A stretch of 64,000 nt of DNA from Cyanobacterium stanieri PCC 7202 (GTDB lineage: Bacteria > Cyanobacteriota > Cyanobacteriia > Cyanobacteriales > Cyanobacteriaceae): contig CP003940.1 in the NCBI GenBank assembly GCA_000317655.1, positions 620,001-684,000 of the forward strand. The letters are read 5' to 3'. A program made the translations under genes and the position numbers. Below are positions 16,026 to 59,722 of the stretch, piece by piece (positions within the stretch are counted from its first letter, which is position 1; each line of letters opens with the position of its first letter). The notes beneath the pieces are model-generated. The model was not told the origin of the DNA. It saw only the letters and a program-made list of their open reading frames with translations, and made no database searches.

Positions 16026-16060
16026 ACAATTAACAATTGATAATTGATAATTGATAATAT
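16024..16060. repeat. AATTGATAATTGATA short tandem repeat
   Basis: The octamer AATTGATA repeats about three to four times just after the stop of the c-di-GMP gene. Related words (TTGTCAATTG, TCAATTATCAATT, AATTGTCCATTG) form similar arrays at 18484-18515, 26983-27050, 29300-29330, 31206-31235, 34971-34995 and 59598-59634. They occur only between genes. Confidence 0.6.
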
Positions 16061-29235: not shown

Positions 29236-29298
29236 CCCGCAAAACATCCCCCAATTCTGGGGGACTTTTATTATAAAAACTTTTCTGGACTTAATATA
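29236..29298. repeat. Family A palindromic repeat, partial copy
   Basis: The core CCCCCAATTCTGGGGG followed by ACTTTTATTATAAAAA and the terminal GGACTTAATATA match the right half of the complete copies. The left terminus is missing. It lies between convergent rplI and guaA. Confidence 0.65.
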
Positions 29299-29335
29299 AT
29301 TATCAATTATCAATTCTCCATTCTCAATTAACTAC

Positions 29336-35021: not shown

Positions 35022-35621
35022 ATGATTTCTGTATTAATATTAGCGGGGGGAAAAAGCTCCCGTATGGGTTTCGATAAAGGATTCATAAAAATTGACGGGC
35101 AATATTTACTCACCAAAACCTATCAAATAGCCACCGAATTAAGTGATCAAGTATTTATAATTACTGCCTCCGATCATCCATATCAGCCCATATTACCCAA
35201 CCATACTAAATTTATAATAGAACCCCATCCCCATCAAGGCCCTTTAGTTGCCTTCGCCTATGGTTTATCCTTTATCAATACCGAATGGGTTTTACTATTA
35301 CCCTGCGATTTAATCTACCTCCATACTGAGGAACTAAAATCATGGTTACAAGTTTTATCCCATATTCAACCCGAAACCATTGCCCTATTACCCCCCCACA
35401 AAAAAGGATGGGAGTGTTTATGTGGTTTTTATCGTCGTAGTTGTCTGTCTTCCTTACAAGCATCCATCACCTCGGGTAACAAGTCCTTTCAAAGATGGTT
35501 AAAACAAGAACAAGTTAACCCTCTTATGGTGAATGATAAGAGGGTTTTATATAATTGCAATACACCTCAAGACTTAGCGGAATGGACCAAGGATTCTTCT
35601 TTCGGTGATGGTTTGGGTTGA
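35022..35621 (+). CDS. mobA: Molybdenum cofactor guanylyltransferase
   Basis: MobA attaches GMP to molybdopterin to make the dinucleotide cofactor of nitrate reductase and similar enzymes. The 199-residue nucleotidyltransferase has the N-terminal GTP loop LAGGKSSRMGFDKGFIKIDG, EPHPHQGPLVAFAYGL and the metal-binding LLPCDLIYL. The C-terminal part contains CLCGFYRRSCLSSL and YNCNTPQDL. Its 3' end lies close to a convergent gene whose ancestral reading frame would have overlapped it (see the collagen-like gene). Confidence 0.92.
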   Translation: MISVLILAGGKSSRMGFDKGFIKIDGQYLLTKTYQIATELSDQVFIITASDHPYQPILPNHTKFIIEPHPHQGPLVAFAYGLSFINTEWVLLLPCDLIYLHTEELKSWLQVLSHIQPETIALLPPHKKGWECLCGFYRRSCLSSLQASITSGNKSFQRWLKQEQVNPLMVNDKRVLYNCNTPQDLAEWTKDSSFGDGLG

Positions 35622-35730
35622 TTGATTTTCCCCAAAAGAGCGAGTTATATCGAGTTGAATTTGAATGGAAGTATCAGCTTCAAGGTGGCGAGGATCAATA
35701 TCTAATTCTCCAATGTTAATTATAAAACGG

Positions 35731-36990
35731 TTATCTTGATAATTTATCTTGATAATTTATAAATTGGGGAGAAACTTCTCCCTCGTAGCGGAGGGTGTAA
35801 TCGCTTCTTTGTCGAACATTAAGACTGCGTGAGGTGGAGGTGCTATATCTAATTCTAAAAGTGGTATCGACCACATCTGATAACCCTGCTTCGTCTACCA
35901 CTTCCATTTCTACCCCCAAACCAATGCCCGATATTCCTCTACTGACCAATCTATTGGTTTCACTACCTCTAATGGCATTAAATACAAAGACTTCTGTAAC
36001 CTGATTACGGGGGGTAATGTTGGTTTGTAACCAAATATCGTTAGGAAAATCAATATTTACGCTACGATCATCCTGTAGGTTTAAGGTTACGGTGCGATCG
36101 CCAAAATCCTCAAAAGGTTGGGGGGCATTCCAAATCATCACCACAGAATTTTCAACCCTTTCCACCAATTCCAAATATTGATCCGCAATAATAGAACCGG
36201 GGGCAAACAAATCCCTTGCACCAGTGCGATTTTCCCAAATATTTTTAGATAAACTAAAACCTCTCTCCTTTAATTCTGTCATGGTTACCGAAGCACTAAG
36301 ACGATCTGGGGGTAAGGGAGTATTACTATTAATTAAAGTTAAACTGCCCACATTCCCTGTTCTTCCTGCCCTTCCCGTACGTCCATTTTGTCCTGCACTA
36401 CCATTGATACAACGAAATTCTTGAGTACCACAACTATAATTTGTTGTGCCAGGGCGCCCTGTGCAAGTCTCTACTGTCCAAAATGACTGACTACATTGGC
36501 AACCATCACCCCCTCTGCCACCATCCCCGCCGTCTCCTCCCTCTCCGGGGGAGGCATTGACAGAAATTTGTCTGAGGTCATTTTTATTGGTGGTATAAAC
36601 AGTAAGATTGCCACCATTACCCCCATCTCCACCATTACCACCGTCTCCCCCTTCTCCACCATCGGCACCCTGTAGGTTGTGGGTGGTATTTTGGGGTTGA
36701 ATTTCACACAATGCCCTCGTGCCATTGGTACCGTTTGCCCCCCTTGTGCCGTTTTGCCCTACCAAATTAAGATTTAGGGGTGAACCATCGGCAAATATGG
36801 TGATACTTTCGCTATTTCTACCATTGTTACCATCCTCTCCTTTGACTCCGTTATTACCTCGATTTCCGAAATTAGTCCCCTGATTTGCGATCGCCCTTAA
36901 ATTACAAAAATTATCTGCAATTATAGGGGAAACCATTTCAGGCAAAAACAAAAACGCAACAGTCACAGAAGTTCTAGTTAGCCAACCCAT
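35731..36990 (-). CDS. Exported collagen-like glycine-repeat protein, 3'-truncated by frameshift
   Basis: A 419-residue exported protein. The signal peptide (TSVTVAFLFLPEMVSPIIA) is followed by Gly-X-Y runs at ~37-58, ~78-92, ~109-127 and ~147-163 (for example GADGGEGGDGGNGGDGG), interrupted by Cys-bearing loops (CQCSQSF, CTGRPGTTNYSC). The C-terminal ~190 residues are beta-rich. The frame stops at 35731 inside a tandem duplication of ATAAATTATCAAG. Removing one 13-bp copy restores an open frame to TAA at 35574-35576 and adds about 53 protein-like residues (DNRFIINIGELDIDPRHLEA and onward). The present end is probably a frameshift truncation. Function unknown; a surface or envelope role is likely. 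Confidence 0.78.
   Translation of the reverse strand: MGWLTRTSVTVAFLFLPEMVSPIIADNFCNLRAIANQGTNFGNRGNNGVKGEDGNNGRNSESITIFADGSPLNLNLVGQNGTRGANGTNGTRALCEIQPQNTTHNLQGADGGEGGDGGNGGDGGNGGNLTVYTTNKNDLRQISVNASPGEGGDGGDGGRGGDGCQCSQSFWTVETCTGRPGTTNYSCGTQEFRCINGSAGQNGRTGRAGRTGNVGSLTLINSNTPLPPDRLSASVTMTELKERGFSLSKNIWENRTGARDLFAPGSIIADQYLELVERVENSVVMIWNAPQPFEDFGDRTVTLNLQDDRSVNIDFPNDIWLQTNITPRNQVTEVFVFNAIRGSETNRLVSRGISGIGLGVEMEVVDEAGLSDVVDTTFRIRYSTSTSRSLNVRQRSDYTLRYEGEVSPQFINYQDKLSR
35735..35760. repeat. 13-bp tandem duplication
   Basis: Two perfect copies of CTTGATAATTTAT lie side by side within the 3' end of the collagen-like gene. The length is not a multiple of three, so the duplication shifts the frame and creates the present stop codon. 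Confidence 0.9.
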
Positions 36991-37820: not shown

Positions 37821-39257
37821 CTAACGGACAATTACTCGCCCGTTCATCCACTCAAACAGACTAAGCTGTAGAGGGTTGGTAGGCTCAGACGCTAACGCCT
37901 CTGATGTATCCCGATTTCTCGAACCTGTTGTTTCAGGTTTACCCGTAACTTTCTGGGTGACTCCCAGTAGAGTATCCAAACTGATACCAAGTATTTTTAT
38001 CCCCCGTTTAGCTAACGTAATACTAGCATTAGTATCGGCATCGGCGGAAGTACCACAATTTAGACATAAGAAACTTTCCTTATGTCTATTTTTTTTGTCC
38101 TTAAAACCACAATGAGAGCAGGTTTGAGAACTATACTTAGGATCAACTTCTAGGAAAATCCGTCCAAACTTTTCAGCTACCTGACGAATTTTATCCTTGA
38201 GTTCACCCCAAGAGCAATCTCTAATTAAGCGGTTTAAGGCTTTCTTTGCTGATTGACCATTTTTCAGGAAATGTCCTTTTTCATTTTGTTTTGGTTGACA
38301 TTTACGGATCATGCCCTGAATGTTTAATTTCTCCATGACTATCACGTCTGAAATGCGATTTAATTTGTGTGCAACTTTCCATTGATAATCCTCCCGTTGA
38401 TTTACTATTTTTTGATCTAACCGTGCCAATTCCTTAAAGGTTTGACGTTGATTATTTGAGCCACGTTTTTTACGACTAGCCCTACGCTGTCTAAGAGTTT
38501 TTCTTTTTGCCAATCGCTTTTCATACTGAGGGTTAGGGATGTTTTCTCCGTTAGACAAAGCTAGTAATTTATGAGGTCTAGCCCCACAATCAACTCCTAA
38601 TACAGACTTAACCTGAACCAAGTCAATCGGTTGAGTTTGTGGTATTGTCTTATCTTCTAACTGAATCGCTACATAGAATCCATCGGCTTTTTGTCTGATA
38701 GTGACACTTCTCATCTCAAATCCCTCTCTCAAAGGACAGGAGAGGTACATTCTCATCCAGCCTATAGACGGTAGATAGATTTTGTCTCCTTCTACTTTCA
38801 CCTGATTAGGTGGGTAGCTGAAACTCTTAAACTGATGGCGTTTCTTAAATTTGGGATAACCTTTACCACCATCAAAGAAATTTTGAAATGCTTTATCTAA
38901 TCGTCTTAGATTTTGTTGCAACACCGTAGAATGAATCGTTTTGTACCAAGGATGAGACTTTTTCAAGCTAGGTAACTCTGAGGATTGCTGTTCATAAGCA
39001 TTCCGCTTTTTCCCGTTATTCTTAAACGGTTCTCCTAAGCTAGAGTTTTTGGAGATAGAGCAAGTTAACGGAGTACACGAAGCTCTTGTTCTCAGGTCGC
39101 AATACTCCCCTAATCTTGGAGCTTTGACCTCCTCGTATGCTTCTATTCTATCTCTAAGGCAATAGTTGTAATGACTTCTAAGCATCGAAATCCAGTTAAG
39201 GAATTTTTTTTCTTGAGATTCCGATGGCTTAAGTTTGTACTTATGGGTTACGATCAT
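37821..39257 (-). CDS. tnpB: RNA-guided endonuclease TnpB
   Basis: TnpB is the RNA-guided nuclease of IS200/IS605 elements and the ancestor of Cas12. The 478-residue protein has an N-terminal HTH/wedge region (MIVTHKYKLKPSESQEKKFL). The RuvC triad looks intact: Asp223 (GVDCGARPHKLL), Glu309 (VIVMEKLNIQGM) and an Asp in TSADADTNASI (406 or 408). The zinc ribbon has CSHC (380-383) and CLNC (398-401). An Arg/Lys-rich region (KRLAKRKTLRQRRASRKKRG) lies between the first two motifs. A ~50-residue polar insertion at ~45-95 separates the start from WYKTIHSTVLQQNLRRLDKAF. No TnpA partner is present. Confidence 0.93.
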   Translation of the reverse strand: MIVTHKYKLKPSESQEKKFLNWISMLRSHYNYCLRDRIEAYEEVKAPRLGEYCDLRTRASCTPLTCSISKNSSLGEPFKNNGKKRNAYEQQSSELPSLKKSHPWYKTIHSTVLQQNLRRLDKAFQNFFDGGKGYPKFKKRHQFKSFSYPPNQVKVEGDKIYLPSIGWMRMYLSCPLREGFEMRSVTIRQKADGFYVAIQLEDKTIPQTQPIDLVQVKSVLGVDCGARPHKLLALSNGENIPNPQYEKRLAKRKTLRQRRASRKKRGSNNQRQTFKELARLDQKIVNQREDYQWKVAHKLNRISDVIVMEKLNIQGMIRKCQPKQNEKGHFLKNGQSAKKALNRLIRDCSWGELKDKIRQVAEKFGRIFLEVDPKYSSQTCSHCGFKDKKNRHKESFLCLNCGTSADADTNASITLAKRGIKILGISLDTLLGVTQKVTGKPETTGSRNRDTSEALASEPTNPLQLSLFEWMNGRVIVR

Positions 39258-42471: not shown

Positions 42472-42721
42472 CCTCAGTTCGGGATAACAGTTGTCAGTAT
42501 GGTAGGGGACGTAGCATGCTACGTCCGTACAGGTTACAGGTTGCAGGTTGCAGGTTACAGGTTTAAAATACGACCAGCCTTTGTTAGTTCCTTGATGGAA
42601 CTAAGTATCAGAAAATTAATTAACATTACAGTTTTTGTAAATTTCTTAACCTGATACCTGACACCCGATACCTGGCACCTTTACAAGACTATAAATTTTA
42701 TCCCGAACTCAGATTATTTAA
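42469..42721. repeat. Family B palindromic element, longest copy
   Basis: The left end AACCTCAGTTCGGGATAACA and the right end TTATCCCGAACTCAGATTAT form imperfect terminal inverted repeats about 250 bp apart. Inside are TTGTCAGTATGGTAGG, the 20-bp palindrome GGACGTAGCATGCTACGTCC (42507-42526), a CAGGTTGCAGGTT array and an ACCTGACACC-type array (42652-42682). A further palindrome GGACGTAG/CTACGTCC follows at 42739-42758. It has no coding capacity and abuts the apcF stop codon. Confidence 0.75.
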
Positions 42722-59565: not shown

Positions 59566-59722
59566 AAAGAAATAAGGATGGATGCAATGAGTAAAACTAA
59601 TTGTCTATTGTCCATTGTCCATTGTCAATTCTTAAATTAGGCTACCATGGATAAGACGTTATCATAATTTCAGAAGAAATTATTAGCAAAATCAAAGGCG
59701 TATTATTTAAACCTCTGACATC

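Follow-up and report, generated by a model that had tools for sequence, protein, structure and literature searches.

A strain-specific 13-bp tandem duplication, very probably recent, disrupts the reading frame of a conserved secreted-protein gene close to its 3' end in Cyanobacterium stanieri PCC 7202

Substrains of the cyanobacterium Synechocystis PCC 6803 carry strain-specific frameshifts and small insertions, as described for spkA, glcP and a 6-bp insertion in pilT2 (PMC10068330). A second mechanism by which short sequence changes can affect a reading frame is found in phase-variable contingency loci containing simple sequence repeats (SSR), where phase variation is defined as reversible switching at a single locus that occurs at a minimal, detectable rate and without selection (PMC11868660). 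With respect to protein architecture, bundles of Gly-rich polyproline-II-type (PPII) helices have been described in Obg, acetophenone carboxylase, phage fibres and the antifreeze proteins of springtails (PMC8409303). The locus of Cyanobacterium stanieri PCC 7202 that is described here resembles the Synechocystis mutations, since a cultured strain has acquired a few extra base pairs within a coding sequence, a type of change that often breaks the gene. It differs from them in the nature of the insertion, a tandem duplication of 13 bp close to the 3' end, by which only the last domain is lost. Our literature searches turned up no publication on this gene, nor any on 13-bp switches in cyanobacteria.

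The gene is located in a stretch of 64,000 nucleotides (contig CP003940.1, positions 620,001 to 684,000), here referred to as the window, whose numbering is used throughout. In the list of open reading frames, and by comparison with homologues, it appears as a truncated ORF on the minus strand (35731-36990), which encodes an apparently secreted Gly-rich protein of 419 aa consisting of a hydrophobic N-terminus, a Gly-rich region, a middle part and a shortened C-terminal domain. Close to its end, Tandem Repeats Finder (TRF) identifies an array at 35731-35760 with a period of 13, 2.3 copies and 100% matches, which reads on the minus strand (35760-35731) as ATAAATTATCAAG + ATAAATTATCAAG + ATAA, with two full copies at 35760-35748 and 35747-35735 and a partial third copy, ATAA, at 35734-35731. 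The ORF starting at 36990 enters this array as ...SPQFINYQDKLSR and terminates at a TAA (35733-35731) that was put in frame by the duplication and that is found in the context AGA TAA C. In this way, the last 53 residues of the protein are exchanged for five residues and a stop. The initial annotation had proposed that a tandem duplication truncates the gene, which is borne out by the perfect array and the premature TAA. Its assignment of the stop to 35731 holds, whereas its placement inside the two copies requires correction, since the TAA is contained in the trailing partial copy, right behind the second full copy.

The displaced tail comprises 53 codons on the minus strand (35577-35735) and is followed by the ancestral stop TAA (35574-35576), which is found at the same place in strain HL-69 (L003) and in the relative L013. 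Its frame is free of stops from 35756 to this TAA and contains DNRFIINIGELDIDPRHLEADTSIQIQLDITRSFGENQSTQTITERRILGPFR; an example of the encoded peptide is HLEADTSIQIQLDITR. Since neither ATG, GTG nor TTG is found in this frame between 35756 and the ancestral stop, the tail would be hard to translate on its own and is unlikely to constitute a separate gene. At its end it overlaps with the last 48 bp (35574-35621) of a convergent and intact mobA-like gene on the plus strand (35022-35621; Pfam NTP_transf_3, PF12804, E 8e-29). Both the convergent arrangement and an overlap of exactly 48 bp are found in each of PCC 7202, HL-69 and L013, and the duplication itself sits outside mobA. As the overlap covers only the last 16 codons, we can rule out that the conservation of the tail is merely imposed by mobA. 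A terminator-like hairpin inside mobA (35517-35546, minus strand), which is located 28 bp past the ancestral stop and is partly kept in L003 and L013, may have arisen by chance, as one such structure was found where 1.4 were expected. As a separate observation, the minus strand at 37821-39257 contains an ORF of 478 aa, which by eye resembles TnpB-type transposon proteins and includes a CSHC...CLNCG segment reminiscent of a zinc finger.

We became interested in whether the displaced sequence is retained in other members of the family. A protein search against 100 genomes of relatives gave matches in 41. In all 29 homologues that were read, including L013, whose N-terminal side is incomplete because the contig ends there, the ORF continues in a single frame beyond the position of the frame shift in PCC 7202. 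The residues encoded beyond this position can be aligned with the tail of PCC 7202, which rules out that this tail is meaningless out-of-frame sequence. The family is widespread, and of 391 genomes from the order, 174 encode a member. When these 391 genomes were searched with the full-length protein of HL-69 (468 residues) as query, 150 matches were listed, and among these all 149 outside PCC 7202 extend to residue 456-468 of 468 without internal stop, whereas PCC 7202 terminates at residue 417. Alignment columns in the tail and those elsewhere in the C-terminal domain are conserved to a similar degree (0.54 vs 0.55). These results settle in favour of the initial annotation that removal of one copy restores 53 more codons of genuine protein ending at TAA 35574-35576 with a 48-bp overlap with mobA. 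They also answer the alignment to homologues it had proposed as a check: neither in the homologues nor among the order-wide matches listed do the proteins all end at ...QFINYQ, as the truncated protein does, and the tail has relatives in both sets. A scan of genome contigs had its sole match in Xenococcus PCC 7305, we found no relatives of the gene on plasmids, and searches of Pfam and NCBIfam with the protein identified no family above cut-off. As the PCC 7202 genome yielded no second copy of the gene, nothing obvious replaces the truncated product.

To place the array in the context of other repeats, we surveyed 464 kb of the PCC 7202 genome, encompassing the window and 20 stretches of 20 kb. 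The survey contains eight perfect tandem duplications with a period of 12-30, compared to none in each of four Markov-resampled copies. Together with the single copy found in relatives, this rules out that the array is a chance repeat. Several of the eight are intergenic repeats of heptad type and the other coding ones do not interrupt the long ORF in which they are located, so that the array at 35731-35760 is the only one among them that spans the end of a conserved ORF. One of the surveyed stretches (L039, 1250-1278; genome 1051250-1051278) contains a perfect in-frame 12-bp repeat, CACGACCATGAT, within an ORF of 376 codons; translated in one of the frames, the repeat gives a His-Asp run that perhaps forms a metal-binding loop. 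Arrays with a period of 7 or 14 are numerous in the window, as for example at 16035-16058, 29298-29330, 42528-42563 and 59600-59630, with units of the types GGGAACA, AATTATC, TACAGGT and ATTGTCC, and we take them to resemble the heptad short tandem repeats of cyanobacteria.

The age of the duplication can be approached by comparison with the two closest homologues with the gene, both of which contain a single copy of the unit (CAATTTGTTAATTATCAGAACAACCG in HL-69 and CAATTTATTAACTATCAAAATAATCG in L013). Substitutions between PCC 7202 and these two relatives place ATAA at either end of the 13-bp unit. In PCC 7202, the unit is thus flanked by a 4-bp direct repeat with starts 13 bp apart, and the duplication is likely to have arisen at this microhomology through replication slippage or misalignment. 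In the tail, dN/dS amounts to 0.075 between PCC 7202 and L003, 0.168 between PCC 7202 and L013 and 0.152 between L003 and L013, compared to upstream values of 0.063 and 0.083 for the first two pairs. Changes unique to PCC 7202 consist of 3 amino-acid and 8 synonymous changes in the tail and 17 and 38, respectively, upstream, with no excess in the tail, and no further lesion was seen in its 53 codons. It thus looks as though the tail was translated until recently, although 53 codons confer modest power to a test of decay. Since the tail displays no decay (dN/dS 0.075), the duplication looks young. The locus combines the features of a recent frameshift allele, with single-copy, in-frame relatives and a displaced sequence that is homologous and undecayed. 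Among the possibilities raised in the initial annotation, a fresh mutation provides the best fit to these data, and we consider it very probable that PCC 7202 has recently acquired this 13-bp tandem duplication, which is specific to the strain and puts the final part of a conserved secreted-protein gene out of frame.

We have weighed this interpretation against three other explanations. The initial annotation had also suggested phase variation, in which slippage would add and remove the 13-bp unit at high rate and thereby switch the protein between long and short C-termini. A tandem repeat can indeed drop exactly one unit, the product has the appearance of a secreted or surface-exposed protein and the tail is undecayed; as in SSR contingency loci (PMC11868660), the copy number of a repeat sets the frame of a presumably exported protein. 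However, such loci are characterized by repeat tracts that are kept or recur in relatives and by frame-off alleles, whereas the array of PCC 7202 contains only 2.3 copies, is lineage-specific and absent from L003 and L013, and no second allele was seen in the one genome available. Moreover, regain from the single-copy state would depend on a 4-bp repeat, and none of the 149 other matches listed is truncated. We thus regard phase variation as very improbable, although loss of one copy would restore the frame and the change could in principle be reversible.

An artefact of sequencing or assembly, or a minority allele that was picked by the assembler, appears slightly less remote but still improbable. 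It would be in line with the origin of the sequence from a single assembly and with the intact and conserved single-copy frame, yet a perfect 13-bp duplication is atypical of base-calling errors. Assemblers rarely invent a repeat of 30 bp, since it fits within one read. Most likely, the truncated allele is fixed in the culture that was sequenced or at least common there, as represented in this one assembly. Recoding, where a +1 ribosomal frameshift near the array would carry translation on into the tail and add four or five residues to the long protein, could make use of the region of about 23 bp (35756-35734) in which both frames are open and would be consistent with the undecayed tail. The latter is equally well accounted for by a young mutation, and inspection revealed neither a homopolymer run, a Shine-Dalgarno-like stimulator nor a known +1 site (such as the prfB-like CTT TGA), which makes recoding extremely improbable.

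The predicted consequences of a recent duplication for the protein were investigated in an AlphaFold2 model of the HL-69 homologue, which was obtained from 30 aligned sequences with a mean pLDDT of 88.8. In this model, residues 343-468 match Ig/FN3-like and FlaF-like sandwiches with Z-scores up to 8.5, which may reflect only a common arrangement, and a Foldseek search with the full model returned mixed unrelated beta proteins without significant match. The predicted domain contains strands at 348-354, 361-366, 375-385, 399-406, 412-421, 438-449 and 452-463, the last two of which are located in the tail and are modelled with high pLDDT within the sandwich. A cut after about residue 416 would take away these two long strands, leaving a remainder of the domain that is encoded at 35749-35964 on the minus strand. 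As it lacks its last two long strands, this domain is unlikely to fold normally and is probably misfolded or missing in PCC 7202. Judged from the model, the allele is thus most likely one of lost or reduced function.

A different picture than previously assumed emerges for the Gly-rich region (36319-36891, minus strand; residues 34-224 of L003). In homologues it is of near-constant length and consists of GXX or GGX runs that are split by short strands, with Cys residues conserved in nearly all sequences. Modelled alone as monomer, it is predicted with a pLDDT of 91.5 as a single-chain bundle of Gly-rich PPII helices, a feature that is seen in the predicted model only. The snow flea antifreeze protein (2PNE) was ranked first by Foldseek (E 0.19), and the model superimposes on it with a Z-score of 9.1 and an rmsd of 1.2 Å over 69 of 81 residues. 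A sequence search of the PDB gave weak matches, nearly all to the Gly-rich part, from which no sequence relationship can be derived. The likeness to the snow flea protein (2PNE, 3BOG) and other PPII bundles thus concerns the predicted fold, and not ice binding or common descent; the PCC 7202 family is larger, with inserted strands and conserved Cys, and continues into two further regions. With bacterial collagen-like proteins (NCBIfam SclB, Lcl; Pfam PF01391) it shares GXX triplets and weak NCBIfam matches (22.7 bits compared to a cut-off of 325), but its triplets are confined to short runs of near-constant length, which are interrupted by strands and Cys. The Pfam Collagen family (PF01391) was matched by 6 of 30 family members with a best E of 0.0034, and the PCC 7202 protein matched no Pfam family up to E 1. 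We infer from these monomer models that the region forms a single-chain polyglycine-II bundle instead of a collagen triple helix, and the label 'collagen-like' of the initial annotation is probably wrong, with the limits of AlphaFold on collagen-type assemblies as a caution for this reading (PMC11869133). The chances are about even that we are dealing with an order-wide family of secreted proteins in which a polyglycine-II bundle akin to the snow flea antifreeze protein is joined to an Ig/FN3-like C-terminal domain, the latter being naturally truncated in PCC 7202.

About 150 other species, as judged from the matches listed, keep this protein whole, whereas PCC 7202 cuts off its last eighth. 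The deposited gene is the truncated allele, and annotation, expression and knock-out work on it would consequently address a probably defective protein. While the truncation is in itself an ordinary finding, the wider interest concerns the family itself, which is widespread, appears to be secreted and has a 'collagen' part for which the models predict a globular fold of the polyglycine-II bundle type.
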